Below, in pieces: positions 1-16,294 of a DNA stretch of 39,067 bases. Every line of letters begins with the position of its first letter. Within the stretch, counting starts at the first letter, position 1. The position numbers and the translations under genes are program-made. The notes beneath the pieces are model-generated. The model made no database searches, was not told where the DNA came from, and saw only the letters and a list, made by a program, of their open reading frames with translations. The DNA is taken from assembly GCA_014729085.1 (NCBI GenBank), contig WJKM01000001.1, positions 1 through 39,067 on the forward strand. Reading direction: 5' to 3'. The DNA comes from Candidatus Dojkabacteria bacterium. Its GTDB lineage: Bacteria; Patescibacteriota; Dojkabacteria; B142; WJKM01.

Positions 1-804
1 ATGAGTAATTTCAACTGGATAGGAATAGTGTCCAATATTGTATCTTGAGCTTTTGATGTAGATAGGTTTGACAGATATGGAAATTATATCTTCCCATCTT
101 AGTGAAACTTTTTTTCCAAGTAGGTAAATAATTTTTAGATGGGTTTTAGATGAAGTGATTTTGATTGGGTCCTTTAGTAGAGTAAAGACTACAGCAGCTG
201 CTGTAATGAAAATAATAATAAAGCTCATAAATAATAAGACGGGAAGTGCTTGCGGACTTTCCCGGTAAGCAAAAAAAGTAAGTATACCCCAAAATACTAT
301 CAATATTACAAACAAAATTATATTTGTAATAATAGTTTTTTGTGAATATTGTAGAGTGTAAGGTAGCTGAATATCTGTAATTTTATAATTTGTTTGAGCT
401 TTTATAATTTGAATAGCTTCCTGAAGTCTGTAAATCATACGATTGATTTTAATTTCTTTTTGTTTTGATTTAACCACTATTAATGGGGGGAAGCCTGTTT
501 TTAGATAATCCACTTTCTTGATGTTCTTGAATTTTATGCTTTGAGTAGGAAAAAATTTTTTTTCAAGAGTAATAGCGTCTTTGGTAAGTATTAGTCTTCC
601 ATTAAAATTTAGTAAAAGGTATATTCCGAAAAACCAAAAAGGGGAGAGCAGAAGTGCAATTAAAGCCATATATTGGATTTCTATTGGGTTATAAACAAAG
701 AGAAAAATAAAAATTAGTGTAAGTATGACATCACACAAGAGTATAATTATGCCTGCCCAGTAAAAGGTACGGAGAAAGGGGTATATTTTGTGTTCTTTTT
801 CCAT
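1..804 (-). CDS. Membrane protein with bacterial PH-like domains (truncated by window edge)
   Basis: The reading frame is open from the ATG at 804 to base 1 (268 codons), so the C-terminus lies outside the window. Two hydrophobic helices at about residues 12-32 and 41-61 are followed by a soluble stretch with the pattern GRLILTKDAITLEKKFFPTQ. A second pair of helices near residues 160-205 leads into another beta-rich stretch (KITSSKTHLKIIYLLGKKVS). Two rounds of helix pair plus small beta domain resemble YdbS/DUF304-type bacterial PH membrane proteins; this is a fold-level guess, and no catalytic motif is visible. It starts 53 bases after the HAD gene on the same strand and may be the last member of that operon. 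Confidence 0.6.
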   Translation of the reverse strand, partial: MEKEHKIYPFLRTFYWAGIIILLCDVILTLIFIFLFVYNPIEIQYMALIALLLSPFWFFGIYLLLNFNGRLILTKDAITLEKKFFPTQSIKFKNIKKVDYLKTGFPPLIVVKSKQKEIKINRMIYRLQEAIQIIKAQTNYKITDIQLPYTLQYSQKTIITNIILFVILIVFWGILTFFAYRESPQALPVLLFMSFIIIFITAAAVVFTLLKDPIKITSSKTHLKIIYLLGKKVSLRWEDIISISVKPIYIKSSRYNIGHYSYPVEITH

Positions 805-857
805 ATTTATTTATTAATATTCTTTATTTTACAATAAGTTTAGATTCGACTTGTAAT

Positions 858-1562
858 TTAAAGAATATTCATTAACTCGAGAAAATTATGGATCTCGAAA
901 TTAGGGCGGGGGATAGAGTTTGGGAAGTTTTCTTTGTTTGGATTAAACCAAATTACTTTTAATCCTGCTTTTTTAGCTCCAAGTATGTCTTCTTTTGGTG
1001 TGTCTCCAATCATAATTGTTGTATCTTTGCTTGCTCCTGCTATTTTTAGAGCATGATTGAATATAGCAGGGTCTGGTTTCCTGATTTTTTTATCAAAATC
1101 AATGGATCTTACTGTATGTTTAAAGTAGGTTTCTATACCTGAACCATCAATCCTGGTATGTGAATTAGAGAGCAGCGTTAGAATATATTTTTGGCTAAGA
1201 TATTTAACTACAGTCCTAGTATCATCGCTAAGCAATGGAGGAGGGCGATCTTTATTTTTAGAGTATTGCACAATGACCTCTTTAATTATATTAGGATCTT
1301 TGATTGGTTTTAAGGCCTCATTAAAATATAATCGTCTGAATTCCGTTTTATGCAATTGTTTTGTATGTTCGGAAGCAACTTTTTTTCGCGAGGATAGCAA
1401 ATTATTTTTTGAGAATAATTTATCAACCAAAGGTTTTTTATATTTCCCTTTGTATTTATTGAGAAAAAAATTTTTTGTTTTGCTTAAAGCTTCTTTCGCC
1501 CAGTTTTGTTCATCGACTAGAGTGCCATCCAGATCGAAAAATATGTGTTTCATTTTATTCAT
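858..1562 (-). CDS. HAD-superfamily phosphatase
   Basis: A 234-residue HAD hydrolase, the usual length for the phosphoglycolate phosphatase/YjjG-like class, which removes phosphate from small metabolites through an aspartyl-phosphate intermediate. Motif I is FFDLDGTL (nucleophile D10, acid D12). Motif II is LLSNSH (S132). The motif III lysine is in KPDP (K162), and motif IV is IGDTPKEDILGAKKAG (D187, D192). The helical cap between motifs I and II is lysine-rich. The ATG at 1562 overlaps the end of the CYTH-like gene by 8 bases; an ATG three codons later is also possible. As the fourth gene of the radical SAM operon it probably acts on a phosphorylated intermediate of that pathway. Substrate unknown. 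Confidence 0.9.
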   Translation of the reverse strand: MNKMKHIFFDLDGTLVDEQNWAKEALSKTKNFFLNKYKGKYKKPLVDKLFSKNNLLSSRKKVASEHTKQLHKTEFRRLYFNEALKPIKDPNIIKEVIVQYSKNKDRPPPLLSDDTRTVVKYLSQKYILTLLSNSHTRIDGSGIETYFKHTVRSIDFDKKIRKPDPAIFNHALKIAGASKDTTIMIGDTPKEDILGAKKAGLKVIWFNPNKENFPNSIPRPNFEIHNFLELMNIL

Positions 1563-2259
1563 TGTTTATTTGACTTTCAATTAAAGCAGAGTATTTTTTT
1601 TGTTTTATTGGAATAAGTTTTGCACCACTAGTTGTTAATTTTTTAACAATCTCATTTTCCCCTGATCCTTCAACTTCTATTCTTAAGTGATTTGAGATTC
1701 CATCAACGTTTTCATTATAAGAATTGAAAATTCCGAGTATTTCATCTACAGCTAACCCGGACAAAGGTTCATCTGGTTTGTTGGTACCGAATTTCCATCT
1801 GCGTTTTAAAATAGTAAATTGTGGTAAAAGGTTCTGTTCTTTAATTATTCTGGTTAACTCCTCGAAATCGTCCGTTGTTAAGTCTTTAAAAGTCAATCCG
1901 TTACTACAATATGAACACCATTTATTTGTTTCTTGTATTTCTGCAGGTAAAGAGGATATTATTAAGTAGGCTTCCGGAAGCATTAGATTACCAGTGTTGT
2001 AAATTCCTCTCAATCTAAATTCGCCTCCCTGTTTTGCTAAATCAAAGTTTGGAGTATCAAAATATATATCTTTACATATAGTCGGAGTAGAAGGGTGCCC
2101 AAGATCTTGTTCCAGAATATGTAATAGGCGAGGTGTTTCATCCCCCTCGATTCCATAACAGATAGGGGTAGAGAAGTTCTCGGTGTGTTTGTCTAACCCA
2201 ATTTGCGTGGATTTTATTTGTTCGTGTATATTATCAAAATGTGGGTTATTTTTTTCCAT
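1555..2259 (-). CDS. CYTH-like (triphosphate tunnel metalloenzyme family) protein
   Basis: A 234-residue protein with the CYTH signature YFDTPNFDLAKQGGEFRLR (about residues 67-85), which matches the family pattern of a 'YxDT' strand followed by 'LxLR'. Later come a basic strand KRRWKF, an acidic strand RIEVEG and a C-terminal KKYSAL, in the order expected for the eight-stranded tunnel. The N-terminal ExExK metal/triphosphate motif is not recognisable: the equivalent strand reads CYGIEGDE. Canonical members hydrolyse or cyclise triphosphates; with this motif altered, activity is uncertain and the protein could bind a phosphorylated ligand instead. It overlaps the PRTase-like gene upstream by 14 bases and the HAD gene downstream by 8, so the genes are probably co-translated. 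Confidence 0.65.
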   Translation of the reverse strand: MEKNNPHFDNIHEQIKSTQIGLDKHTENFSTPICYGIEGDETPRLLHILEQDLGHPSTPTICKDIYFDTPNFDLAKQGGEFRLRGIYNTGNLMLPEAYLIISSLPAEIQETNKWCSYCSNGLTFKDLTTDDFEELTRIIKEQNLLPQFTILKRRWKFGTNKPDEPLSGLAVDEILGIFNSYNENVDGISNHLRIEVEGSGENEIVKKLTTSGAKLIPIKQKKYSALIESQINNE

Positions 2260-3274
2260 TAGAGTTGTTTGTTAGGTGTATAATCAAATCTAAATACCAT
2301 GAATCTGGTTTTAGCTTCAGTCTTTGAATATCGTTATTGCTAAATAAGTGGTCTAAAAATACAAAATAGTCTAGATTCTGCAAAGATTCCCATGTCTTAG
2401 GAAAGAGACCAAGTGTTTTTGCATTTCCTCCGAGTATTTTTTTTGCATGTTTTAGAGTGGCTCCAGTCCCAGCTTTATCTATAATTATTAAGTCTTCCCC
2501 TGGTATTTTTGAATATTTATGCGAAAGTAAAACCTCTTCTATGGGTTTATTTCTACAGCTCCAAAAGGGATCAACATCTAGATGAATCTCGATAAGAAGT
2601 ACATTATCATCTATTCCTTCACTTAAATATCCAAGGGCATATTTACATCCCGAATGTGCAATAAATACTTTATGCTTGGCTAGTATGGAAATTTCATGCC
2701 ATATTTTCCCTTTTTTTATATATTCAACATTGTATAATTTGCAGAATTCTTTATACTTGCTCTCAATATGGTGCAGGTACTGGTCCTTATATTGTCGGTA
2801 AATTTGAATATGGGGTCCTTTCTCATAATTAATTTTTCTGTCTGTAAAAGCTTTGTAATTCTTTTTTTTGTTGGATTTATCTAAGCCAAGTTTTTTAATT
2901 ATTTTGCTTAATATTTCTTTTCGGACCTTTGTGAGAATTGGTCTTTTATTATTTCCAAGTACAAACCAAAAATCGAATAATTTAAATAGTTCTGTATCAT
3001 ATTTCGAAGCAATCTCTTTATATTCCGTTATGTTTTCATTTAAGTTTTCCCAGACAGCTAATAATTTTTTAAGGCCATAGTTCTGCAGGAGAGTAGTATC
3101 ACTTAGATCAAGAAGAGATATCGATGGATATCCGATACAATATCCACTTTGGGAAATACTATATATTCTTAAGCCTTGTTTTTTACATTCCAAAGCTCTT
3201 TTAGAATTTTTTACTTCCCAGGTTTTTATTATATGATTATAAAATTTTCCTTGAATTGGTTTTTTTGTGTTCAT
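2246..3274 (-). CDS. Phosphoribosyltransferase-like protein
   Basis: A 342-residue protein. The C-terminal part carries DLIIIDKAGTGATL (residues 261-274), which fits the PRPP-binding loop of type I phosphoribosyltransferases (hydrophobic strand, acidic residue, then a TGxT-like turn). It is preceded by a strand-rich segment with HLDVDPFWSCR. The loop reads DKAGTGAT rather than the common DDxxTTGxT, so it is a divergent member. The N-terminal 200 residues, rich in lysine and tyrosine, match no family I recognise. It lies 18 bases downstream of the radical SAM gene and overlaps the CYTH-like gene. Its context suggests a role in making or salvaging a ribosylated compound; this is inference. Confidence 0.5.
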   Translation of the reverse strand: MNTKKPIQGKFYNHIIKTWEVKNSKRALECKKQGLRIYSISQSGYCIGYPSISLLDLSDTTLLQNYGLKKLLAVWENLNENITEYKEIASKYDTELFKLFDFWFVLGNNKRPILTKVRKEILSKIIKKLGLDKSNKKKNYKAFTDRKINYEKGPHIQIYRQYKDQYLHHIESKYKEFCKLYNVEYIKKGKIWHEISILAKHKVFIAHSGCKYALGYLSEGIDDNVLLIEIHLDVDPFWSCRNKPIEEVLLSHKYSKIPGEDLIIIDKAGTGATLKHAKKILGGNAKTLGLFPKTWESLQNLDYFVFLDHLFSNNDIQRLKLKPDSWYLDLIIHLTNNSNGKK

Positions 3275-3292
3275 TTTTTTGTATCAAAAGAA

Positions 3293-4453
3293 TCAATCAA
3301 AGTATCCTCTATATACTTCGCCATCAATTGAATTTCTTACAAAACCACCTATTTCAGGCATAAAGTTGTGTTTTGTAAAGATATCATTCACTCTGTGTGC
3401 CATGTCCAGCAGGTATTCAATTGTAGGTGTCTTTTCATTGCGTAAGGCTGATCCCTTATCTGGGTGGAAAATATTTAATGAAGGTACAATGCCTTTTTCC
3501 GCTAATTCTTCCAATTTGTCGAACATTTCATCTAAGGGTTCTAGTCCGGCTACTAGAGTACAATAGACATTCCCTTTACCAAAGATTTTTACAGCATAGT
3601 TCAATGCTTCAAAATATTTCTCATGACTATAAATTTGAGACTTCCCAGGACAAATTTGATTAAATAGTTCTCGATTAATAATCTCTTTACATACTGTTAC
3701 CGTATCTAATCCTGCTTCTTTCATTTGGTCGTACCATTCAAACTCAATTGGAGGATGGAATACTAAATGCTGGACAAATTTTTTTGGGGAAATTTTTTTT
3801 ATTATTCTTAAAATTTTTAATAGTTCCTTATAGCCAGTATTGGGGTCTGATCTTGTGCCAGAGCAATAGTTTAAATAACGTACTTCATCTTTAGAGTGTT
3901 TAATGACAAGTTTCATTGCTTCTTCTGCAAGTTCTGGTGTAATGACTTTAACTGCTTTTTTTCCAACCGTCTTTCTTGTTTTACCCAAGGAACAAAATTT
4001 ACAAGGCATTCCCTTTTCCCAAAAAAGGCAACCGCCGTATATAAAAATTCCAAGTGCATATTTTGTAAAAAAGTCGAATATGTCTTCACAATTTTTCCCG
4101 TTTTCTAATTTTTTGCCATAGAATTGAGGTCTTTTTAAATAATCTATTTGAGTACATTTTTCTTTTTTGTAGAACAAAAATTTTTGGGCATCCTTCCCTA
4201 TCTTTACTTTCCAAGGGGAATCCGCTCTGTAATGAACCCCAACAGCAGTTTCCTCTACATCTTTAGTTGGTGGAATTAATAGTACAGGAGGAAGCCCAAC
4301 TTTTCCGGATAAGCCGATATCGCTGTTCCCGAAATGGTAAGTTTTTTCCATATATAGTGAACCAATACCTTTAAGGGTATTTTGGTCAAAGCTTACCCCC
4401 TCTGATAATAAGCCTATTTTTATATGTCCTGGATTGGTTAAGTTTAGTTTCAT
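3293..4453 (-). CDS. Radical SAM protein with CX8CX2C motif
   Basis: A 386-residue protein and the first gene of the minus-strand operon. The sequence GGCLFWEKGMPCKFCSLGKT places cysteines at 142, 151 and 154, giving CX8CX2C where most radical SAM enzymes have CX3CX2C. The preceding IFIYGG and following CSLGK agree with an iron-sulphur cluster site in a TIM-barrel enzyme. Later barrel elements are visible: RYLNYCSGTRSDPNTG, a GLDTVTVCKEIIN strand, LVAGLEP and SLNIFHPDKGSAL. The first 130 residues form an extra domain. Such enzymes cleave S-adenosylmethionine to start radical chemistry. The reaction is unknown; PRTase-like, CYTH-like and HAD neighbours point to a nucleoside- or phosphate-bearing substrate. 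The start is the ATG at 4453, downstream of an extended -10 promoter. Confidence 0.8.
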   Translation of the reverse strand: MKLNLTNPGHIKIGLLSEGVSFDQNTLKGIGSLYMEKTYHFGNSDIGLSGKVGLPPVLLIPPTKDVEETAVGVHYRADSPWKVKIGKDAQKFLFYKKEKCTQIDYLKRPQFYGKKLENGKNCEDIFDFFTKYALGIFIYGGCLFWEKGMPCKFCSLGKTRKTVGKKAVKVITPELAEEAMKLVIKHSKDEVRYLNYCSGTRSDPNTGYKELLKILRIIKKISPKKFVQHLVFHPPIEFEWYDQMKEAGLDTVTVCKEIINRELFNQICPGKSQIYSHEKYFEALNYAVKIFGKGNVYCTLVAGLEPLDEMFDKLEELAEKGIVPSLNIFHPDKGSALRNEKTPTIEYLLDMAHRVNDIFTKHNFMPEIGGFVRNSIDGEVYRGYFD

Positions 4454-4522
4454 TTTTTTAAATAAAGTATTAGATAAAAACTCATAGTTATTAAATAAGT
4501 AGTTGATTGATAATATAGTACG

Positions 4523-4531
4523 ATTATATCA
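4523..4531 (-). promoter_or_regulatory. Extended -10 promoter for the radical SAM operon
   Basis: On the minus strand the sequence reads TGATATAAT, a TGn extension directly before a perfect TATAAT. It lies about 70 bases upstream of the radical SAM ATG at 4453. No good -35 hexamer is seen at 17-18 bases, which is common for extended -10 promoters. Confidence 0.5.
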
Positions 4532-4841
4532 AAAGATGGACATGGAGTAGACACCAAGATTTGGAATTATCATAAATTCACTTTTTTACTTTAAATATTT
4601 AACTAAGTACATTTCTATAGCTTAAGCATTATATTTGCAAATTAATTGAAAGTTTTGAGTTTAAATGTTAATTTTGTGAACCTCCAAAGCTATCACAAAA
4701 ACCCCTGAGTGTATCTTTCCTTGGTAGAGCAGCGAGAATGAAATTTTCGGTAGTAAATAAGGCTGAGCGAGGTTATAGGATGATAATCCTTGTTTATTAT
4801 TAGAAGCATATTGATGGACTACCCTTATTTGGGGCTAATAA
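4532..4841. other. Non-coding divergent intergenic region
   Basis: No convincing gene lies between the minus-strand radical SAM operon and the small plus-strand gene at 4901. The stretch separates two outward-facing extended -10 promoters. A small hairpin (AGGAT, GATA, ATCCT) occurs near 4777-4790, and the flanking segment 4730-4800 is slightly richer in G than its surroundings. I see no tRNA or open reading frame here. Confidence 0.5.
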
Positions 4842-4871
4842 TTGAAAGTAATTATGTCGTTGTGATATAAT
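4842..4871 (+). promoter_or_regulatory. Promoter for the small cysteine protein gene
   Basis: TTGAAA at 4842-4847 and TATAAT at 4866-4871 are separated by 18 bases, with a TGA extension directly before the -10. Expected transcription start is near 4878, giving a leader of about 23 bases before the ATG at 4901. Confidence 0.65.
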
Positions 4872-4900
4872 CTATAGGATTAATTCTTAGTTATTTATAA

Positions 4901-5149
4901 ATGGAAAATTTAACGAATCCAAACTACCAGGCAATCATTAACGGTGTAAATTGTTCCGGTTGCCATTTGGCTGCACATTGTAATCAAGAAGCTTCACCAA
5001 TTTATCCAAATATTAATCTACGGGAAGCAATTGACGCGGGTGTTATTCCGAAAAAAGCCGATGCATCACGATTAAGATTTCTTTTAGCAGGAGATTGTTA
5101 TGGGTCTTTGAGAAGTGAACAAAGTGGGCATGCAGCAACAATAATATAG
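4901..5149 (+). CDS. Small cysteine-motif protein of unknown function
   Basis: An 82-residue protein I do not recognise. Near the N-terminus is NCSGCHLAAHC, a CxxCx5C cluster that could bind zinc or iron-sulphur, and one further cysteine follows in AGDCYGS. There is no signal peptide or membrane segment, so it is probably cytoplasmic. A well-formed promoter stands directly upstream, the frame is free of rare features, and the start is the only ATG in a sensible position. The convergent gene at 5697-6059 has a cysteine motif of identical spacing, so the two may be distant relatives or act together. Confidence 0.6.
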   Translation: MENLTNPNYQAIINGVNCSGCHLAAHCNQEASPIYPNINLREAIDAGVIPKKADASRLRFLLAGDCYGSLRSEQSGHAATII

Positions 5150-5316
5150 ACAAGGGTTCTAATAATATATAGAGGATTATATAGTCTTTTGTTATTGATG
5201 ATTGAAAATAAATCATTACTATTTGATTTTAGAGGATAGATGAATTTTGGAAACTTGGCATTTTTACTTTACAGTCATTTTATAATATACTCCAAACGTC
5301 TTTTTGGCAGTGAAAA

Positions 5317-5344
5317 TTTCACGTTTATACATATCAACGTGAAA
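5317..5344. terminator. Perfect 9-bp hairpin, probable terminator
   Basis: TTTCACGTT at 5317-5325 is the exact reverse complement of AACGTGAAA at 5336-5344, with a 10-base loop. On the minus strand it is followed by four T residues; on the plus strand by CTTTAT. It lies 170 bases beyond the stop of the 4901 gene, so it may end that transcript, but the weak T-tract leaves other roles open. Confidence 0.4.
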
Positions 5345-5380
5345 CTTTATAAGTATCCTCTTATTGTTCATTTTTGTCTT

Positions 5381-5530
5381 TAAGCACCGTGCCTGCCTAT
5401 AGCCCTCTTCGCTAGAAACCTCTGTTTTCAAGCGGAGGATGAATACAGATTTTCTGCTTCAAAGGATTCCGCTTTGAAACCGTGAATTTTAGTCCGCAGT
5501 ATTTCATTTTGCAGTCAGGCAGGTAACTCG
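5381..5530. ncRNA. Candidate structured non-coding element
   Basis: A segment with visibly higher GC than its surroundings and no reading frame. It is bounded by an inverted repeat, CCTGCCT at 5392-5398 and AGGCAGG at 5517-5523. Inside are a CCTC...GAGG pairing near 5431-5448 and a CTTCAAAGG/CTTTGAAA hairpin at about 5457-5479. This could be a folded RNA or a small dispersed repeat. Strand and identity are unknown; no known RNA family was recognised. Confidence 0.3.
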
Positions 5531-5696: not shown

Positions 5697-6059
5697 CTAT
5701 GTACTTCCGAATTTTGCTTGAAGAGGACAATTTGAACAAATTTGAGAATTATTAAATTTTGACCTTACTATTGGGTAGTTACTTTCCCCCTTATCCCCAG
5801 GTGATCCAAGTGTAATATTAGGATGTCCTGTTAAAGGTTCATCTGGAGAAACGTAGCACTGACCAAGTGAGGTACAAGTACTACATACAGGAACAATGTG
5901 TGTTTCTGCATATTCCCATGCCTGTTGAGGTGTTAATTTCATAGATTCAAGACCTTTAAACCAGATCATAGAGCCAGAAACTCCTTCTACTACTTTAGCT
6001 CCAGCCTCAGGTCCTGTTGCAGGGCCAATACGATCTGTTACTGTTGTAAGATATTCCAT
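5697..6059 (-). CDS. Small cysteine-rich protein of unknown function
   Basis: A 120-residue protein I do not recognise. It has VCSTCTSLGQC (CxxCx5C) in the middle and a second CSNC pair near the C-terminus, so a two-site zinc or iron-sulphur protein is plausible. No signal peptide or membrane helix is seen. The frame could be extended to a TTG at 6083, but the promoter at 6087-6116 predicts a transcription start near 6080, so I chose the ATG at 6059. A strong terminator follows, making it a single-gene transcript. The cysteine spacing equals that of the convergent gene at 4901. Confidence 0.65.
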   Translation of the reverse strand: MEYLTTVTDRIGPATGPEAGAKVVEGVSGSMIWFKGLESMKLTPQQAWEYAETHIVPVCSTCTSLGQCYVSPDEPLTGHPNITLGSPGDKGESNYPIVRSKFNNSQICSNCPLQAKFGST

Positions 6060-6086
6060 GAATTGAGTAGTAAAATATAACAATGA

Positions 6087-6247: not shown

Positions 6248-6598
6248 TTAATAGTTATATTTCTGTAAATATTGTCTGAAATCGTCTAAGGAAAAGATTT
6301 CTTTAAGATATTCACCTTTCTTAAATTTTCCATTAATTGAAATAACAAGCCCCTCAACATACTTGTATTTAGTTTGGGGGTTGAAATCGTAGATGTATTC
6401 ATATAATTTCTTACATTTATATGAAAGTTTACCAGTAATTGTTTTTAAAGACTTCCTATTCAAGAATTTATGATTCTTAACTTCGAGAGCATATAGTTTC
6501 TTATTGAGAACGATAATAAAATCATAATCACTCTTAACGCCTTTTATAGTTATATTCTTATAATAAACAATATCATTTTCATCTAGAATTTCTTGCAC
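6248..6598 (-). CDS. PD-(D/E)xK nuclease-like domain protein (NERD-like)
   Basis: A 116-residue protein with SDYDFIIVLNKKLYALEVKN, which fits the core of PD-(D/E)xK nuclease folds: an aspartate near residue 26, then E39-x-K41 on the next strand. NERD-type domains have this order and often occur with transmembrane segments. The start codon is GTG at 6598, directly after AGAGGAG and seven A residues. The upstream gene encodes two membrane helices and overlaps by 16 bases. A -1 slip on AAAAAAG would join the two frames exactly at this GTG, so this may be either a separate protein or the C-terminal half of a membrane-anchored nuclease. Confidence 0.65.
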   Translation of the reverse strand: MQEILDENDIVYYKNITIKGVKSDYDFIIVLNKKLYALEVKNHKFLNRKSLKTITGKLSYKCKKLYEYIYDFNPQTKYKYVEGLVISINGKFKKGEYLKEIFSLDDFRQYLQKYNY

Positions 6599-8036: not shown

Positions 8037-9542
8037 ATGAGATTTTCAGAAGCGGTGTATCATATGTCTAAACTCTATTTGGATAAGGTTGTATCCTCTT
8101 TTACTAAAAATATAAAAAAATTAAATGAAGAGGAATCAAGGGATTTAATTAACAAGAACATAAAGGACATAACTTCAAAAGACCACATATCTAAGAAATT
8201 TAATTTTGGTGAGTACGACTTCATAAAAAGAAATATTATGTTGGAACTTGTAATCTTTCTGTTATTGCAAAGAGAGTATAAGGTCAATGAGAAGCATATA
8301 TTTAAGAAATTCAACCAGTTTATCAAAAACAAATTAAAACAAATTAAAAATCTTGAGGTGCTTAATAATATTGATGAAAGAGCTGTCGATTTGGTTGAAA
8401 CTTTATTTGAAGTTATTCAGGAAGATAAACATATATCGTCAGATGAGGAGAGAATATTATTAAGATTACAAAAGAAACTGGATTTAAATCAATTAGAGTT
8501 TAGGTCAATTGTTTACCATAAAAATAAATTTAATTTATTAAAGAATTTTTCTGATAGCCTGATAGATGAAGGAATAAAGGAATTAATGAATTTAGGTTTA
8601 GTTTTGTATTTAAATAAAGATGTAAAAGAAAGATGCTACCTAATACCCGAGCAGATAAGTCTAATATTGACAGAAAAGCTAGGTTACCCTTTAGATATAA
8701 AAGCCTATTATCTGCTTTTCAAAAATACCTCAAAGAAATCCTTAGCAGATCTTGCGAAAAAGCTAAACTTAACGGTTTCGGGAACTAAAGAGGAACTAAT
8801 AGACAGATTTTATTATCAAGGTTATTCTGCATATAAACTACTTGAAAAGATCGGTAAAAAAGATCTGCAGGATATAGCTAGGTCAATTGAAGATATAAAG
8901 ATTAGCGGAACCAAAGATGAGGTAATTAATAATATTATTAAGTTTTTCTTTAAACTAGATACTAATCCTGTTGCTAAGAAAAGCAAACTCAAAGATTCAG
9001 ATATATGGGAATATTATGAGGACATAGCTAATAGAAATTATAACCTGCTTCGACAGCTTGGAATTATAAAAAAAGATCTGGAAATCGAGCATCTATTTGA
9101 GAAATTAACTGTATATGGTTTTGAAAAATTAGGAAATCTTAAAACAAAGGACCTAAAAGGTTCAAATAGGGCAGATGGTTGTATCGAGACGGATAAGGGA
9201 ATAATTTATTGGGATAATAAAAGTCAGGAAAGTCCATATGAATTTCCAAACAAGCATCAAAAACAATTCTTACAATACATAAAGGCTTCTGATCAAGAGT
9301 TATTATATTTTCTTGTAATAACTAATGACATTGAGGATACAAAGAGTGTGGAGGCTAATTGTATTAAGTTGTCGGGTTTAACAAATATTAATATTGGGGT
9401 GATTAGTGCAAGGACCTTAAAAAATTTCTTGGAAGAATACAATAAAGAAAACAAGAATAAAGCCTTAAATATCCAACTATTTAATCATAATGGAGTAATT
9501 ACTAAAGAAATATTGAAAATGCGTTTTGGGATTTTTAGGTAA
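8037..9542 (+). CDS. SAP-domain protein with FokI-like PD-(D/E)xK nuclease motif
   Basis: A 501-residue protein. The first 220 residues are helical and charged. Two SAP-like DNA-binding motifs follow at about 234-262 (SLADLAKKLNLTVSGTKEEL) and 274-303 (DLQDIARS...SGTKDEVI). Near 378-412 is RADG, then GIIYWDNKSQ, then YEFPNKHQKQFLQYI. This matches the order of the FokI cleavage domain, in which PDG, a strand ending DTK, and a Y-LP-Q helix form the active site; the predicted catalytic residues are D380, D393 and K395. A DNA-cleaving role, perhaps in defence or element maintenance, is inferred. No methyltransferase lies nearby. The gene stands alone between opposing genes. Confidence 0.6.
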   Translation: MRFSEAVYHMSKLYLDKVVSSFTKNIKKLNEEESRDLINKNIKDITSKDHISKKFNFGEYDFIKRNIMLELVIFLLLQREYKVNEKHIFKKFNQFIKNKLKQIKNLEVLNNIDERAVDLVETLFEVIQEDKHISSDEERILLRLQKKLDLNQLEFRSIVYHKNKFNLLKNFSDSLIDEGIKELMNLGLVLYLNKDVKERCYLIPEQISLILTEKLGYPLDIKAYYLLFKNTSKKSLADLAKKLNLTVSGTKEELIDRFYYQGYSAYKLLEKIGKKDLQDIARSIEDIKISGTKDEVINNIIKFFFKLDTNPVAKKSKLKDSDIWEYYEDIANRNYNLLRQLGIIKKDLEIEHLFEKLTVYGFEKLGNLKTKDLKGSNRADGCIETDKGIIYWDNKSQESPYEFPNKHQKQFLQYIKASDQELLYFLVITNDIEDTKSVEANCIKLSGLTNINIGVISARTLKNFLEEYNKENKNKALNIQLFNHNGVITKEILKMRFGIFR

Positions 9543-9898: not shown

Positions 9899-10216
9899 TT
9901 ACGTTTGTTTTTGTTTCTGATATATAAGACCAAGACACTTTCTACAAGTGATTTTTTTGCTGAAAGGATTTTTGAATAGTGTTCCTTTCCTTTTTCCACA
10001 TTCAGGACATTCAAACCATAATCTTTCCCCCCCAAATGCTGTTTCTGAAGTACTTAAATTTATTTTATATCCTTGGACTTCTAAGTAAGATCTAATAAGT
10101 TTTATTTTGATCTGAGGCTTAATTTCTCTTATACATTCATTTATATCTAACTTTTCCAGATCCTCAATACAGAATAAATCATTAAGCCCATATGATTTAG
10201 GTATTTTTTGAGTCAT
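9899..10216 (-). CDS. Zinc-ribbon protein of mobile elements
   Basis: A 105-residue protein ending in a four-cysteine ribbon: FGGERLWFECPECGKRKGTL, then ITCRKCLGLIY. The pattern (FGG-R-WFxCPxCG then CRxCxxLxY) is one I associate with small proteins in integrated plasmids and conjugative elements. I chose the ATG at 10216, which overlaps the upstream gene by 20 bases; the longer frame to 10276 would overlap it by 80. It probably binds nucleic acid. It forms a two-gene unit with the helical protein upstream at the left end of the probable mobile element. Confidence 0.65.
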   Translation of the reverse strand: MTQKIPKSYGLNDLFCIEDLEKLDINECIREIKPQIKIKLIRSYLEVQGYKINLSTSETAFGGERLWFECPECGKRKGTLFKNPFSKKITCRKCLGLIYQKQKQT

Positions 10217-10811
10217 TGTCTTTAGAATTAAAATTTGGATTATTTTGTAATAATTGTTTTTCTGCAATATAGGCATTTTCTGTTTTTACGTTTACTTTTA
10301 ATGGTGGTGATTTGATTCTTTTTAACATGGAGAGAGATTTTAAATATTGTTTATATGCTCTGTCAGTTTCTTTGCATAGTTTTGAATAGTAGCTTATCTT
10401 TTCATTACTTAGGTACTCAATATCCTTAAAGAATTGTGATCTGTTTGTATATTCAAGGAATCGGATGTATGCACTAGTTACCATTTGTACAAGTGCTTTT
10501 TCACTGGGACTTCTGCAATTGTATTCTTCTGTTATGTCTCTTGCAAACTTAATAGATAGCTCTTTATATATTTCGTCCACAGAGCTGGAAAGCAGACAGT
10601 GTGTGTCTAATTCATATATTCTGTAATGTTTCCTTATTAAGTCAGTCATTTTTTCTTTTTCTTTATTTGTTAAACCCTTTTCCTTATATTTATTCATTAG
10701 ATCAAGTAATTTCTCTAAAGCTTTTTTAGGGTCATGACTGATACTTCCGACACTATTGATAATATCCAGTACGTCATTTTCTTTTATTTCCTTATTTTTT
10801 TTGTTAGACAT
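10197..10811 (-). CDS. Helical mobile-element accessory protein
   Basis: A 204-residue, almost wholly helical and charged protein. The central SPSEKALVQMVTSAYIRFLE and a helix with YKQYLKSLSMLKRIKSPP resemble uncharacterised proteins that accompany recombinases and zinc-ribbon proteins in integrated elements. No catalytic motif or membrane segment is seen. The ATG is at 10811, and the gene overlaps the zinc-ribbon gene downstream. It is divergent from the gene at 10994. Function unknown; assignment to a mobile element is by pattern and context. Confidence 0.55.
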   Translation of the reverse strand: MSNKKNKEIKENDVLDIINSVGSISHDPKKALEKLLDLMNKYKEKGLTNKEKEKMTDLIRKHYRIYELDTHCLLSSSVDEIYKELSIKFARDITEEYNCRSPSEKALVQMVTSAYIRFLEYTNRSQFFKDIEYLSNEKISYYSKLCKETDRAYKQYLKSLSMLKRIKSPPLKVNVKTENAYIAEKQLLQNNPNFNSKDNDSKNT

Positions 10812-10915
10812 AGCTTGTATTGTTTAGATATACTTAATTCTATTTTTATTATAGCATTTATTATCTCCACAATAGTCTGATAGTCAACATGGTATTAAAT
10901 TGAGGAGATATTTCT

Positions 10916-10924
10916 TGGTATAAT
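10916..10924 (+). promoter_or_regulatory. Extended -10 promoter
   Basis: TGGTATAAT (TGn plus perfect TATAAT) lies 70 bases upstream of the ATG at 10994. The predicted transcript would carry the terminator-like hairpin at 10955-10991 in its leader. Confidence 0.5.
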
Positions 10925-10954
10925 AGATTGTATTTAAAATCAATTTGGAATTAT

Positions 10955-10991
10955 AAGGGGGCTTTCTCCAAATTGAGCCTCCTTATTTTTT
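10955..10991 (+). terminator. Leader terminator/attenuator hairpin
   Basis: AAGGGGGCT (10955-10963) pairs with AGCCTCCTT (10976-10984) with one G-T wobble and a 12-base loop, and is followed by ATTTTTT. It has the form of an intrinsic terminator and ends three bases before the ATG at 10994, between promoter and gene. This position suggests attenuation rather than simple termination. The right arm CCTCCTT also matches the anti-Shine-Dalgarno sequence. Confidence 0.65.
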
Positions 10992-10993
10992 AT

Positions 10994-11911
10994 ATGAATA
11001 AGCTACTTAAGCCTGCAGAACAAGATGAGATAAAGAATATTTTAAAAGCATTATTCTATCATTTTGGAGATGAACTTGAAAACCTTGATTATATGATTTT
11101 TCAACCATTGCATAATGATTCAATTCATAAGGGACAGGAATTAAAAGAATTTGATTTCTATGATATCAATATTTATAAAAAAAGAGGTCATGAGCACAAA
11201 ACTGGATATATCATCAATTATTCAAAAAGAAAAACTTTAAGATTTTTTATCCAAAATAAATTTTTTATCTTAGAAGAACCTTTTACGAGGATATTTGGGT
11301 CTTATATTCCTACCGAACTTCATAAGAAGGACTTAAAGATAATTGGTCAATATTACTATAATACTTCAGCTGGTATAATCAGCTTGTATCTTGATATTGA
11401 ATCGGAGAATAAAGCTTTAAATTTTTGGCGAGATAAAATTTATCCAGTATCTCTTACCGTAGCAAAAATTAATCGAAAAAAAGTTATTAGTTATAAAGAT
11501 TCTTTCGAATTGTTATTTCAAAAAACTCAAGATGGATTGGAAAGAAAATATGAAATTTCTACTCGTACAGGGAGTATAAATATTTCCTTCAATATTCACA
11601 ATGAAATTTTTAAATATCAGAAAGCTAACCAACCAGAAATACTGTTTAATTTTTCTAAATCAAAAAGTAAAAAGATAAAAAGTAAAAATTCATTATTACT
11701 TAACAAGCTTTTTCATGAACCAGACAATCAAGTTGAATTAACAAAAAAAGAAAGTTCTAGTTTACAGAGGATAAAAGAAAAACTTTACAGGGGTGATAGT
11801 AAAACTACTCCTCCTGAATCGACAATCCCCAAGGAGATAGTCGATAAGATGTTCAATCGAACAAGAAAATGGGGTAGACTTAATATCGAGGGTTTTATTG
11901 ATACAAAATAG
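10994..11911 (+). CDS. Hypothetical protein of the mobile element
   Basis: A 305-residue protein from the ATG at 10994 (MNKLLKPAEQDEIKN). A longer frame begins at 10928, but that would translate through the terminator hairpin, so the inner start is preferred. It is rich in lysine, phenylalanine and tyrosine, with alternating beta-strand patterns (IISLYLDIESE, SINISFNIHNE) and a basic linker KSKSKKIKSK near residue 230. No known motif is recognised and there is no membrane segment. It is preceded by an attenuator-like hairpin and followed by a hairpin at 11916-11950. Confidence 0.6.
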   Translation: MNKLLKPAEQDEIKNILKALFYHFGDELENLDYMIFQPLHNDSIHKGQELKEFDFYDINIYKKRGHEHKTGYIINYSKRKTLRFFIQNKFFILEEPFTRIFGSYIPTELHKKDLKIIGQYYYNTSAGIISLYLDIESENKALNFWRDKIYPVSLTVAKINRKKVISYKDSFELLFQKTQDGLERKYEISTRTGSINISFNIHNEIFKYQKANQPEILFNFSKSKSKKIKSKNSLLLNKLFHEPDNQVELTKKESSSLQRIKEKLYRGDSKTTPPESTIPKEIVDKMFNRTRKWGRLNIEGFIDTK

Positions 11912-11915
11912 TATT

Positions 11916-11950
11916 GATTTTGTTATGTGGAGTTTCCACAACAAGAAATC
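11916..11950 (+). other. Imperfect hairpin after the 10994 gene
   Basis: GATTT at the left pairs with AAATC at the right, and an inner TGTGGA/TCCACA stem closes a short loop (12 of 16 positions paired). It begins five bases after the stop codon. No T-tract follows, so it may protect the 3' end rather than terminate transcription. Confidence 0.35.
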
Positions 11951-12062
11951 CACAAGGTTAATATTCAACATTCCTACTTCAAGATTGTAATCTATTCTAA
12001 ACCCATTTGATTCTTCAGGGGCTACTTTCCATATAGATTGAAATAGTACTAACAAAAAATTC

Positions 12063-12068
12063 TTGACA
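12063..12068 (+). promoter_or_regulatory. Possible -35 element
   Basis: A perfect TTGACA, but the nearest good -10 (TATAGT, 12092-12097) is 23 bases away, so this is only a weak promoter candidate for the structured leader and the genes at 12262-14447. Confidence 0.25.
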
Positions 12069-12150
12069 AAAGGAAAAATCTACATGTGAATTATAGTAGA
12101 CCGATTTATTTAGGTTTCACTATGGAAAGGAAAAATAGAAAAATAAAAAA

Positions 12151-12227
12151 ACGACCGAGAGAAAATCGCTCTGAAGAAATCAGAGGACCTCCTCTCGTTT
12201 TCCTTCTATCAATAGAAGGGTTTTATT
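12151..12227 (+). ncRNA. Structured leader or small RNA upstream of the replication genes
   Basis: Three stems lie in about 75 bases. CGAGAG (12156-12161) pairs with CTCTCG (12192-12197). Inside it CTCTGA (12169-12174) pairs with TCAGAG (12180-12185). Then CCTTCTA (12202-12208) pairs with TAGAAGG (12213-12219), followed by GTTTTATT. The strand between stems holds ACCTCCT, identical to the anti-Shine-Dalgarno sequence. It ends 35 bases before the ATG at 12262. It could be an attenuator or a small regulatory RNA controlling copy number; known plasmid controls work this way, but no family is recognised. Confidence 0.4.
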
Positions 12228-12261
12228 GTATTTAAATTATATCAGATTTGGATAAATTACT

Positions 12262-12543
12262 ATGAAAAATAATATAAAAACAGAGAATTTTTACATTGCG
12301 GTAGGGCTTATTGCACAGAATTTTAGTTTGATTGGAATCATTCCTAGAGAGTCTTTCTGCGGAAATATCTATATTTTTAGGAAGGAGAGTGATATAGAGG
12401 AAGCAATTGAGGATATACGAAATGGAAAAGATAGAGTCTCTATGAGAGATGTATATAACGCAAGAAATTATTTAGTAGGAGCTATACAAACACGGAGGTT
12501 TCAACAGCAGGTTGAACAAGAATTGCTATTGAAAGATGAGTAG
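12262..12543 (+). CDS. Small hypothetical protein (DUF5659-like)
   Basis: A 93-residue protein with the layout FYIAVGLIAQNF near the N-terminus, a beta segment with IYIFRKESDIEEAIEDIRNG, then a helix with DVYNARNYLVGAI. This resembles small plasmid/phage proteins of the DUF5659 type, in which a short alpha/beta domain precedes a helix; the match is by eye. No enzyme motif is seen. It is the first gene of a three- or four-gene unit with the primase-finger and RepA-like genes, overlapping the next gene by 8 bases, so co-translation is likely. Confidence 0.6.
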   Translation: MKNNIKTENFYIAVGLIAQNFSLIGIIPRESFCGNIYIFRKESDIEEAIEDIRNGKDRVSMRDVYNARNYLVGAIQTRRFQQQVEQELLLKDE

Positions 12544-13162
12544 TTTTGTTGAAAATGAACAAAACTTTCATTATCTAATTGAATTGGAAGACCAGCACAG
12601 GCGCCAGCTGGCTTCCATGACAATAGAGGAAGAACTTGATGCTTTTCCTGAAGCCGAAGAAATACTTCTAAGGAATAAGAAGATATATGAAAAAAGGCTT
12701 TGTAATTTTGAAAAGCGGATTAAGAATGCTGTTGTAAATATGAAAAAAAGAAAAAGACCAGACTGGGAAGTCGAAATCTTTCTTGATCTAATAACAGTAG
12801 GTAAAGAGTTACAGGAAATTATCAATAATTTAAATTTTATTAATAAATATATTATGAAAATCAAATTACGAAAATTTAGGAATAAAGATCCTAAATATAG
12901 AAGGTTTACTCATGATGTTGAGGTTGCAAGGGGTGTTGATATAGAAAATCTATTTAATCGTTTTGGTATTAATCTTAGGAAAAAATTTGCAATATGTCCT
13001 TTTCATGATGATAAGAACCCTTCATTGAGGGTATATCCAAAAACAAACTCCTGGTATTGTTTCGGATGTGGTAGAGGAGGGGATACTATCGATTTTGTAA
13101 TCAAGATTGCCAAAGTTGATTTTAAGAAAGCAGTTGATTTAATTGTTAACAATGGATTATGA
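12536..13162 (+). CDS. Primase-type CHC2 zinc-finger protein
   Basis: A 208-residue protein. The C-terminal 70 residues are a CHC2 zinc finger as in DnaG: CPFHDDKNPSLRVYPKTNS followed by WYCFGCGRGGDTIDFV, with ligands C, H, C, C. The N-terminal 130 residues are helical and basic (KKRKRPDWEVEIF). The TOPRIM polymerase domain of DnaG is absent, so this alone cannot be a primase. It may bind template DNA for a partner or act as a regulator. The ATG at 12536 overlaps the upstream gene by 8 bases and its stop overlaps the RepA-like ATG by 4, which ties it to plasmid-style replication. Confidence 0.85.
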   Translation: MSSFVENEQNFHYLIELEDQHRRQLASMTIEEELDAFPEAEEILLRNKKIYEKRLCNFEKRIKNAVVNMKKRKRPDWEVEIFLDLITVGKELQEIINNLNFINKYIMKIKLRKFRNKDPKYRRFTHDVEVARGVDIENLFNRFGINLRKKFAICPFHDDKNPSLRVYPKTNSWYCFGCGRGGDTIDFVIKIAKVDFKKAVDLIVNNGL

Positions 13163-14235
13163 ATACGGAAGAATTTAAAAACAGTATCTTAGAGGAAGCT
13201 GATCAAATTGTGAAGAAAAATTATGTATATTTATTGTCAAAAACTGTAACTGAGATTATGAATGATTCGGATTCTGATATGAAATATCTAGTAGAGGGTA
13301 TGATCTTTGAAAAGACAATCAATCTAATATCTGGGCATTCTGGGGTTGGTAAATCTTTATTTACACAATTATTGGCAGGATGTCTTTCGTTAGGAAGTGA
13401 TTTTCTAGATAAATATCTATGCAAAAAATCAAATGTAGCATTCCTGGATAGAGAAAATGAGGATCCAGTCCTTAAAGAAAGGTATAAAAAGATCGACTCA
13501 GATAAAGACTCAATATTTTATTTGGATTTAGAAACTGAGTTTAAAGGAGAGGCGGTAAATGAACTAGAGCAGTTTATTCAACAAAATGATATAGATGTTT
13601 TGATTATTGACACTATGGTTAGATTCCAAAGAGGAGATGAAAATAATTCTAAGGATGTTGCCAGTTTCTTTGCTATTTTGCGCAAACTATTAAAAAGCTT
13701 GAAATCAATATTTTTAATTCATCACTTAAGGAAAGGTAATCCAGATGAGAAGGCAGGTAATATGTCAGCAAGAGGCAGTTCTGATATACCAGCTTCTGTA
13801 GATTCACATTTCTTAATCGAACAAACTAAGAATGCAGATTTTCTTACTATTAGAAATGTAAAGAATAGACTAGTAAAAGAGTTCTCAGATGTGACCTTTA
13901 AAATTGTCAGTGATGAAGATGAATTGAGATTTGAGTTTCAAGGTACAGCATTTGATTTTAAAGAGCATAAACTTACGAAGACGAAAAGGTTAATTTTGGA
14001 GGCAATAGAGCTTCATAATGAGGCAGGTTTTGATCAAATAGTGGAATACGTAAAAGATGGAGGAGGGTATTCTTGTACAAATATTCGTAAGATTATCAAA
14101 GACTATGAAGAGGATAATGTAATTATGACAAGAAAAGATGTAAATAAGATTTTGTATTCCGTTAATCTAGAACATAAAGAGGTCCAGTTTCATCTCAAGA
14201 TTAAACCACAAGAATCTATAGACTTATACTCCTGA
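13159..14235 (+). CDS. RepA-like RecA-fold ATPase (AAA_25 type)
   Basis: A 358-residue protein. Walker A is GHSGVGKS (59-66), and the strand IDVLIIDTM ends in the Walker B aspartate D151. A sensor region SIFLIHHLRKG and the motif SARGSSDIPASVDSHFLIE follow, as in plasmid RSF1010 RepA-type hexameric helicases and AAA_25 proteins. The last 100 residues look like a winged-helix domain. The family unwinds DNA at plasmid or phage origins. The ATG overlaps the primase-finger stop (ATGA), so the two are co-translated. With the recombinase downstream this indicates an integrated element with its own replication genes. Confidence 0.8.
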   Translation: MNTEEFKNSILEEADQIVKKNYVYLLSKTVTEIMNDSDSDMKYLVEGMIFEKTINLISGHSGVGKSLFTQLLAGCLSLGSDFLDKYLCKKSNVAFLDRENEDPVLKERYKKIDSDKDSIFYLDLETEFKGEAVNELEQFIQQNDIDVLIIDTMVRFQRGDENNSKDVASFFAILRKLLKSLKSIFLIHHLRKGNPDEKAGNMSARGSSDIPASVDSHFLIEQTKNADFLTIRNVKNRLVKEFSDVTFKIVSDEDELRFEFQGTAFDFKEHKLTKTKRLILEAIELHNEAGFDQIVEYVKDGGGYSCTNIRKIIKDYEEDNVIMTRKDVNKILYSVNLEHKEVQFHLKIKPQESIDLYS

Positions 14236-14273
14236 CTGTTGTGGAGGATATTTTATATTTTAGTTATTAAATA

Positions 14274-14447
14274 ATGTTAGACATTTCAAAGGCAAGAGAT
14301 ATACTAGAAAAAGACGTTAAAGGATGGAGTGATGAAGAAATCCAAAAGTTGCTCACTTCATTATATTGTCTTGCTGGTAGATACTTGGATAAACATATGA
14401 AAGATGTTTTATCCGATTCAGAAAAAGATTATAATGAAAATGGATAA
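14274..14447 (+). CDS. Small 57-residue acidic helical protein
   Basis: A short open frame starting at the ATG at 14274, 38 bases after the RepA-like gene on the same strand. The protein begins MLDISKARDILEKDVKGWSD and continues with predicted helices (EEIQKLLTSLYCLAGRYLDK). The amphipathic pattern and in-line position support a real gene. It resembles short helical proteins of plasmids, but no family is recognised. It ends just before the large hairpin at 14490. Confidence 0.5.
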   Translation: MLDISKARDILEKDVKGWSDEEIQKLLTSLYCLAGRYLDKHMKDVLSDSEKDYNENG

Positions 14448-14451
14448 GACA

Positions 14452-14539
14452 AACTATACACATAAGACAATCAAATTTTGTCTCGATTTAGGGGCTACTT
14501 GCAACGTGTATAGTTACACTTATCCAACAGGTAGCCCCT
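14452..14539 (+). other. Large hairpin with alternative pairings
   Basis: AGGGGCTACTTG (14490-14501) pairs with CAGGTAGCCCCT (14528-14539), 12 base pairs with one wobble. Its loop holds GTGTATAGTT (14506-14515), which is the exact reverse complement of AACTATACAC at 14452-14461 and can also fold internally (GTGTA/TACAC). A further GACAA/TTGTC hairpin lies at 14466-14482. Two mutually exclusive folds are therefore possible, as in attenuators or switch RNAs; a plain terminator after the small gene is the alternative, although no clear T-tract follows. Confidence 0.5.
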
Positions 14540-14593
14540 ATTTCGTTATTTGTTTGTTATTTATAGAGTTCTTTATAAAGTCAAGGAATCGCT

Positions 14594-14615
14594 GGTTCGA
14601 GTCCCATCATCCGTA
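14594..14615 (+). pseudogene. tRNA 3'-end fragment
   Basis: GGTTCGAGTCCCATCATCCG and two more bases fit the T-loop, the 3' T-stem, a seven-base acceptor strand and a discriminator A of a tRNA, but no matching 5' portion (which would begin ACGGATG) exists upstream. Such 3' remnants often mark one end of an integrated element. The upstream bases do not complete the T-stem. A run of eight T follows. Confidence 0.45.
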
Positions 14616-14643
14616 CTTTTTTTTAAAAAAGCCAAAGAAAGTC

Positions 14644-14672
14644 TTGACTTATACTATTAATATTAATATTAA
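14644..14672 (+). promoter_or_regulatory. Recombinase promoter
   Basis: TTGACT (14644-14649) and TATTAA (14667-14672) are separated by 17 bases, placing the start point about 16 bases upstream of the ATG at 14696. A perfect 26-base palindrome (14652-14677) covers the spacer and -10, so it could be an operator. Confidence 0.55.
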
Positions 14673-14677
14673 TAGTA
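14652..14677. repeat. 26-bp perfect palindrome
   Basis: Each 13-base half (TACTATTAATATT and its reverse complement) is complete with no spacer. It overlaps the predicted -10 box of the recombinase promoter. AT-only palindromes can arise by chance in this composition, but 26 bases including the outer C/G pair is long. Confidence 0.6.
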
Positions 14678-14695
14678 CATTACTTCTAATCAATC

Positions 14696-16240
14696 ATGAC
14701 AATGAAACAAAAAAGTATTATTTATGCTAGAGTTTCATCAAACATGCAAGCAAAAGAGGGGCATGGTTTAGACAGTCAAGAAACTATGTGTAGAAAATAT
14801 GCTGAATCAAATGATTACAATGTTTTAAAGGTATTTAAGGATTCAGGGGTTTCGGGAGGAGTTATAGATAGACCAGCCATGAAGAAACTCCTTGAATTTC
14901 TAGAAGAACGGGACGAGGAAATTATCGTAATATTTGATGATATTAAAAGATTTGCTAGGGATGTAATGGGTCATTTTTCTCTTAAATCAGAAATATATTC
15001 ACGAGGTGGAAGGATAGAGTCGCCTACTCATAAATTTGAGGATTCTCCTGAAGGTAGATTTGTTGAAACAATACTGGCAAGTGTTGGAGAACTTGAAAGG
15101 AATCAAAATAGAAGGCAGGTTATTAGACGTCAGAAAGCAAGATTATTAAATGGATACTGGGCATTCAAGAATCCTAGAGGATTAAAGTTTGTCAAAAAGC
15201 CTGGGCATGGAAAGGTCCTGATTCCAGATGAACCAGTTGCCTCAATCTTTAAAGAAGCAATTATTAAATACAGAGATGGTTATTTAAATACATTTAAAGA
15301 AGTAAGGGAGTTTATTAATAAGAAGTATAAGCTTTATGATATTGACGAAAGAATATCTATAAAGGGAACTGTAGGGGTGCTTAAGAATCTTCTTTATGCT
15401 GGTTACCTGGAACATAAAGCCTGGGATGTGGACCTTAGAAAAGGAAAACATGAAGGAATTGTTACATATGACACATATCTACAAGTTCAAAAGAAGCTGG
15501 AGAGTGGATCATTTGATACATTCAGGAAAGATATAAAGGAGGACTTCCCTTTAAGAGGTCATCTTCTATGTCCTTATTGCGATAATTTGATGACTGCTTG
15601 CTGGAGTAAAGGATGTAGTAAGTATTATGCAAATTATTATTGTTATCAGAAAGGTTGTGAATGTCGTTATAAGGTTTGTAATCAAGATAAAGTGCATGAA
15701 AAATTTGAGAAATACTTAGAAAAGGTTAAGCCTAAGAAGAACATGCTTATATTACTTGAAAAGGTGATTTTTGATGTATGGTCAGATAGAAAAGAGCAGG
15801 AGAGTAGGTCTAAAATTAATTCTAAAATGTTAATAAAAAGAATAGATGATAAGATTGAAACCTATATGGAGAGAATAGGTAAACTGAATAATAGTCCATT
15901 AATTAAGCAGTATGAACAAAAAGTATCCGCTCTTCTTGAGGAAAAAGAAAAGATAACTGAGGAAACTGGAAATTTAAAATATACTGAGGAAGAACTTCGA
16001 ACTGCTTTAGGTCAAGTTTTAGATATTCTTAAATCGCCATGCAGGCATTGGGTAGACGGGACTCTAGAGGATAAAAAAATCTTCATGAAATTCTTTTTTG
16101 ACGGGAATATTTATTATGATCTAAAAAGTGGATTTCGAACTAAAAGATATTCTCCTATTGTTAGGATATTAAAGGATATAGATGATTCAACTTTGTCTAT
16201 GGAGAAAAAAGTGCAGGGAGAGAGATTCGAACTCCCGTAG
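14696..16240 (+). CDS. Large serine recombinase
   Basis: A 514-residue site-specific recombinase of the large serine type. The resolvase domain begins IIYARVSSNMQ (catalytic serine in ARVSS), with the conserved DDIKRFARD segment, SPEGRF and the E-helix GELERNQNRRQVIRRQ. The recombinase domain follows (about 160-270), then a zinc ribbon (LLCPYCDNLMTACWSKGCSK...CECRYKVC) and a coiled coil (about 370-430) typical of phage and element integrases. It inserts or excises the element by serine-linked double-strand exchange. The ATG at 14696 is chosen; another lies two codons on. The last 29 bases lie inside tRNA-Tyr, so the tail GERFELP is encoded by the tRNA complement, which suggests this is the element's right end. 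Confidence 0.93.
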   Translation: MTMKQKSIIYARVSSNMQAKEGHGLDSQETMCRKYAESNDYNVLKVFKDSGVSGGVIDRPAMKKLLEFLEERDEEIIVIFDDIKRFARDVMGHFSLKSEIYSRGGRIESPTHKFEDSPEGRFVETILASVGELERNQNRRQVIRRQKARLLNGYWAFKNPRGLKFVKKPGHGKVLIPDEPVASIFKEAIIKYRDGYLNTFKEVREFINKKYKLYDIDERISIKGTVGVLKNLLYAGYLEHKAWDVDLRKGKHEGIVTYDTYLQVQKKLESGSFDTFRKDIKEDFPLRGHLLCPYCDNLMTACWSKGCSKYYANYYCYQKGCECRYKVCNQDKVHEKFEKYLEKVKPKKNMLILLEKVIFDVWSDRKEQESRSKINSKMLIKRIDDKIETYMERIGKLNNSPLIKQYEQKVSALLEEKEKITEETGNLKYTEEELRTALGQVLDILKSPCRHWVDGTLEDKKIFMKFFFDGNIYYDLKSGFRTKRYSPIVRILKDIDDSTLSMEKKVQGERFELP

Positions 16241-16294
16241 CCGTGAGGCGCCAGATTTACAGTCTGGTGCAATTGACCGCTCTGCCATCCCTGC
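16212..16294 (-). tRNA. tRNA-Tyr (GTA)
   Basis: An 83-base class II tRNA. The acceptor arms are GCAGGGA and TCCCTGC with discriminator A. The anticodon arm CCAGA-CTGTAAA-TCTGG gives anticodon GTA. The long variable arm is as expected for bacterial tRNA-Tyr, and the T-arm contains GTTCGAATC. CCA is not encoded. Six T residues follow almost directly on the minus strand, giving a simple terminator. The recombinase gene overlaps its 3' half on the other strand. It is transcribed after tRNA-Thr. Confidence 0.96.

Follow-up and report, generated by a model that had tools for sequence, protein, structure and literature searches.

What does a compact operon make when it combines a radical SAM protein, a protein with a phosphoribosyl pyrophosphate (PRPP) loop-like motif, a CYTH-domain protein and a HAD-superfamily hydrolase? 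The question is raised by four minus-strand genes in a 39,067-nucleotide stretch of DNA from Candidatus Dojkabacteria bacterium (contig WJKM01000001.1, positions 1 to 39,067; hereafter the window). The explanation that we favor, and to which we would assign a probability of roughly 55%, is that a mobile core cassette produces or alters a small molecule that is both ribosylated and phosphorylated, with a modified nucleotide as the most likely candidate. As judged by sequence comparison, this core consists of the radical SAM protein, the phosphoribosyltransferase-like (PRTase-like) protein and the HAD protein, and the CYTH protein is an accessory.

In the direction of transcription, the genes encode the radical SAM protein (3293..4453, 386 amino acids), the PRTase-like protein (2246..3274, 342 amino acids), the CYTH-domain protein (1555..2259, 234 amino acids) and a subfamily I HAD hydrolase (858..1562, 234 amino acids). 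An 18-base gap separates the first two genes, the PRTase-like and CYTH genes overlap by 14 bases, and the CYTH and HAD genes by 8 bases; the list of open reading frames (ORFs) thus agrees with a preliminary description of this DNA on all coordinates, overlaps and the gap. That description also placed the genes behind a single extended -10 promoter. The element is indeed present upstream of the operon (TGATATAAT, 4523..4531, minus strand), approximately 70 bases from where the radical SAM gene begins. However, it is weak evidence of a promoter, because the window contains 9 extended -10 sites where 4.5 are expected, and sigma-70-like sites in the AT-rich positions 1-5400 occur at the level of chance (23 versus 24.6 expected). 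The genome (G000; 1.6 Mb in 23 contigs) contains the radical SAM gene and the PRTase-like gene once each.

Evidence that these genes belong together comes from G382, a genome that belongs to the same order but to another family and was the sole relative retrieved by a radical SAM search of the order. There, on the minus strand of locus L012 (8027-10838), three consecutive genes encode homologs of the PRTase-like protein (L012:9921-10838; 29% identity, E 2e-34), the HAD protein (L012:9211-9924; 36% over 104 amino acids, E 3e-10) and the radical SAM protein (L012:8027-9208; 30% identity over its length). They are part of an eight-gene minus-strand run with overlaps of at most 4 bases and gaps of 2-5 bases. 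Its remaining genes encode an adenylate-kinase-like protein (L012:10835-11482; E 5.4e-16), a NUDIX protein (L012:7512-8030; E 4.1e-14), a thymidylate-kinase-like protein (L012:6598-7512; E 1.4e-9; TIGR00041, 3e-13) with a weak ParB-like C-terminus (E 0.025), an ORF without a named family (L012:6089-6592) and a P-loop protein (L012:5748-6092). No CYTH gene is found in the run. The gene order differs between the two loci (radical SAM, PRTase-like, CYTH, HAD here; kinase, PRTase-like, HAD, radical SAM, NUDIX, kinase in G382), so linkage has been maintained through rearrangement, and its persistence at approximately 30% identity despite such reshuffling argues against chance neighbors. The adenylate-kinase-like, thymidylate-kinase-like and NUDIX proteins belong to nucleotide-phosphate enzymes, and give stronger support to a nucleotide substrate than any other observation. 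Divergent from the G382 cluster lies a 190-amino-acid ORF (L012 11588-12160, plus strand) with no Pfam match, in which an N-terminus resembling nucleotide N-hydrolases or deoxyribosyltransferases and an Arc-like C-terminus (phrog_582, E 0.09) can be discerned by eye.

The distribution of the genes tells a similar story. A profile made from the pair of PRTase-like proteins matches 2 of the 86 genomes of the class, and the radical SAM profile matches the same two; if the genes were independent, the chance of hitting the same pair would be 1/3655, with adjacency not yet counted. Neither gene occurs without the other in any of the 86 genomes. With the PRTase-like profile, no additional match came from 380 genomes sampled evenly across the phylum or from 353 genomes of the class to which another phylum member (G310) belongs. 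Within the same family, the closest genome in the sample (G385, 89% complete) has neither gene. The core is therefore rare, patchy and kept together.

In genome contigs, protein-pattern scans that used the radical SAM protein or the PRTase-like protein revealed no relatives, and neither did scans of viral contigs, whether single proteins or alignments served as queries; searches for the PRTase-like protein in phages and plasmids gave nothing convincing. One match, in the record MT835476.1 ("Bacteriophage sp."), was rejected as a viral carrier, since the record looks like bacterial DNA and has no PRTase-like gene; at approximately 73-92 kb it carries ABC transporter, sugar kinase and oxidoreductase genes.

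These results modify the proposal of the preliminary description that all four genes form one uncharacterized nucleoside or phosphate pathway. The idea of such a pathway withstands one refuting condition named in that description, namely that the genes would be unlinked in close relatives: in G382 the radical SAM, PRTase-like and HAD genes are linked and lie beside kinase and NUDIX genes, and the first two co-occur. However, the results do not support the set of four as the unit: what is linked is a core of three genes in a different order, the CYTH gene is missing from the G382 cluster, and the CYTH protein here has lost hallmark metal- and triphosphate-binding residues. Nor do they support conservation of the set across Patescibacteria, given that only two of the several hundred genomes searched in the phylum had the PRTase-like gene.

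Of the core proteins, the radical SAM protein is the most readily placed. It matches PF04055 in Pfam (E 7.2e-10) and the NCBIfam domain model NF045502 (E 4.9e-83; 279 bits, cut-off 125), which the G382 copy matches at 289 bits. A cluster-binding CX8CX2C motif lies at residues 142-154, and its cysteines are invariant in three homologs. By contrast, its score against TIGR04043, the radical SAM family of the Nit1C cluster (MSMEG_0568/NitD), is 121 bits, well under the cut-off of 303.7. On these scores, the protein clearly belongs to NF045502, a family without an assigned reaction, and is related only distantly to the Nit1C family, with which it has a homologous radical SAM domain. In Nit1C, the neighbor of the radical SAM gene encodes NitF, which resembles aminoimidazole ribotide synthase (PMC11049912). 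We count this second ribotide neighbor of a related radical SAM protein in favor of a nucleotide or ribotide substrate. Other NF045502 members, in the phylum (G310 and G217) and on plasmids of Agrobacterium pusense and Streptomyces, have different neighbors and no adjacent PRTase-like gene. The A. pusense protein (NZ_CP123353.1; locus L010, 5723-10638) is 29% identical to ours, and its gene adjoins those of a second radical SAM protein, a NUDIX protein and galE, a further NUDIX-associated context.

The PRTase-like protein is recognized by its motif. Our definition of a PRPP loop was two acidic residues followed by T-G-x-T. Residues 263-273 read IIIDKAGTGAT (IIIDKAGTGATLK at 263-275), and the G382 homolog carries IIIDRSYTGNT in the same alignment columns; when either protein is shuffled, such a motif arises in approximately 0.1% of cases. 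In hhalign comparisons with E. coli hpt, apt and yhgH, the best local alignment covers the PRPP loop each time, with a weak score. Relative to type I phosphoribosyltransferases such as E. coli Hpt, the motif is in matching register (LIIIDKAGTGATL versus LIVEDIIDSGNTL), but the protein has approximately 180 extra N-terminal residues and departs from the family in ways considered below. We therefore call this 342-amino-acid protein PRTase-like by motif and an orphan by profile; it is probably, but not provenly, a phosphoribosyltransferase.

The HAD protein is a probable phosphatase (PF00702, E 3.1e-20), with the motifs DLDGT, SNS, RKP and GDTPKED intact; its best NCBIfam match, like that of its G382 homolog, is TIGR02253, below that family's cut-off. 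The CYTH protein matches PF01928 from profile position 21 (E 1.8e-8; 34.9 bits, cut-off 23.2). When aligned with CYTH proteins from the same class, it retains the FRLR arginines and the C-terminal IEVE of CYTH/triphosphate tunnel metalloenzymes, but has lost the T-x-K lysine and, having PICYGIEG in place of, e.g., EVELKL, also ExExK, the CYTH hallmark that coordinates metal and substrate (PMC8233210). The cluster 7 CYTH proteins described in the same study likewise lack ExExK, and a CYTH cluster without this motif includes a plant protein with pyrophosphatase activity. Because of this loss, the protein here is not simply a classical triphosphatase, and it is probably non-classical or ligand-binding. 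Among the assignments of the preliminary description, those of a radical SAM protein and a HAD protein are thus confirmed; the triphosphate-tunnel-like protein does belong to the CYTH family but without the hallmark metal- and triphosphate-binding residues, and the PRPP-loop protein is matched at the level of its motif, with confirmation from neither profile nor fold.

We infer a phosphoribosyltransferase activity, a nucleotide substrate, an order of steps, a product and a biological role along the following lines. The PRTase-like protein would couple PRPP with a base or with a base-like acceptor, or would act on ribose-5-phosphate. The radical SAM protein would then modify the base or the sugar by means of a 5'-deoxyadenosyl radical, using a 4Fe-4S cluster bound by CX8CX2C, and the HAD protein would remove a phosphate. 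Lineage-specific accessory genes may tune the phosphorylation state, i.e., nucleotide kinases and the NUDIX protein in G382 and the CYTH protein here, which, lacking ExExK, may bind a (tri)phosphate rather than hydrolyze it.

It is important to consider the observations that weigh against this explanation. The PRTase-like protein matches no phosphoribosyltransferase family in Pfam or NCBIfam even at E<=1, and although TGxT and the second acidic residue are present in both homologs, the first acidic residue is replaced by isoleucine. A search of the PDB by sequence returned nothing relevant for this protein, only spurious repeats (PPR, Pumilio), and its single-sequence AlphaFold model (pLDDT 40.5) is unusable for fold. 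The core is present in only two genomes, so that its linkage rests on n=2. Finally, HAD proteins are common and promiscuous, and can join operons by chance.

Both copies of the core lie near genes of mobile elements. Region 9899-16294 of the window encodes a CHC2 zinc-finger protein, a RepA-like AAA_25 ATPase and a serine recombinase. The recombinase gene (14696..16240, plus strand) is adjoined by primase and RepA-like ATPase genes, and its 3' end overlaps a tRNA-Tyr gene (16211-16294, minus strand), a probable integration module. In L012, the eight-gene run has a serine integrase and a terminase (phrog_38, 2.6e-74) on one side and a tRNA-Ser gene on the other. An island with the serine recombinase may carry the operon, although no terminal (tRNA-end) repeats marking its boundaries were found, nor was its other end. 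The sparse presence of the core and the nearby serine integrases suggest mobility, i.e., that the core cassette is transferred horizontally.

Several genes near the two copies are of separate interest. A NERD-domain ORF (6248-6598) lies near the operon, as does a 501-amino-acid protein (8037-9542, plus strand) with two SAP-type domains (7.9e-10 and 4.8e-6), a weak TerB match (1e-4) and a weakly nuclease-like C-terminus, which is possibly a defense or DNA-processing protein. An Mrr-like nuclease (L012:4024-4692) is near the G382 copy. Two small CxxC-rich ORFs near the operon, at 4901-5149 (plus strand; CSGCHLAAHC) and 5697-6083 (minus strand; CSTCTSLGQC ... CSNCPLQAKF), have no Pfam match and possibly encode small metal-binding proteins.

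It might be supposed that the operon genes are merely passengers, i.e., unrelated cargo of an island that came to lie side by side and has no common pathway. The integrase, primase and RepA-like ATPase genes in this region of the contig and the sparse distribution would fit such an origin, but the adjacency of the same three families in G382, at such divergence and in another order, and the fact that neither the radical SAM nor the PRTase-like gene is found alone in the class, make it quite unlikely. A different proposal is that the genes form an anti-phage defense or toxin-like module, whose product would be a chain-terminating or signaling nucleotide, following a logic like that of prokaryotic viperins. 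This would account for the NERD, SAP/TerB and Mrr-like genes near the two copies, for the nucleotide kinases of G382, and for a cassette that is mobile and sparse. However, these nearby genes are not common to the two loci, and none of the four operon proteins matches PADLOC models. Moreover, the cysteine motif of viperin-like radical SAM proteins is CX3CX2C, a spacing that differs from the CX8CX2C of this NF045502 protein. We consider defense rather unlikely.

We are strongly doubtful of hypermodification of DNA or nucleotide supply by a phage or integrated element, in which modified nucleotides would be made for the element's own DNA. The terminase and integrase near the G382 copy, and its thymidylate-kinase-like and NUDIX genes, are suggestive in this respect, but neither locus showed a DNA polymerase, a thymidylate synthase homolog or a modification enzyme, the proteins of the window have no informative PHROG match, and the PRTase-like gene was on no viral contig searched. 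The weak TIGR04043 match might instead point to metabolism like that of the Nit1C (MSMEG_0568) cluster, concerned with a cofactor, a nitrile or tRNA. This is hardly probable, as that family's cut-off is not reached, the partner genes differ, and reading the ORFs of the window revealed no nitrilase or other Nit1C gene. Defense, DNA modification and Nit1C-like metabolism each have less support than a nucleotide-processing core. A further possible likeness, in gene content, is to tellurite (Ter)-associated modules, in which a phosphoribosyltransferase and a HAD protein are proposed to make a nucleoside-like metabolite; we know of no radical SAM protein in those modules, which is a difference from the cassette here. 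A stretch of the Klebsiella virulence plasmid pLVPK, considered as a source of a ter operon for comparison, contains no such operon.

The gene set is a real, uncharacterized radical SAM metabolite cassette. Radical SAM metabolite cassettes as such are already known, and a search of open-licence papers for this particular gene set found nothing. A bolder version of the nucleotide explanation, which we offer only tentatively, is that small-genome bacteria possess a new mobile system in which a variant radical SAM protein and an unrecognized phosphoribosyltransferase family make a new modified nucleotide. In this tentative version, the nucleotide would act in signaling, as an antimetabolite or as a building block of DNA or RNA, and the kinase and NUDIX or CYTH accessories would be interchangeable. 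The three-gene core is small enough for direct expression and assay. If our explanation is true, it would provide a substrate class to test for the NF045502 radical SAM enzymes, would reveal a divergent PRTase-like family beyond current profiles, and would mean that compact cassettes for nucleotide chemistry are exchanged among bacteria with reduced genomes.

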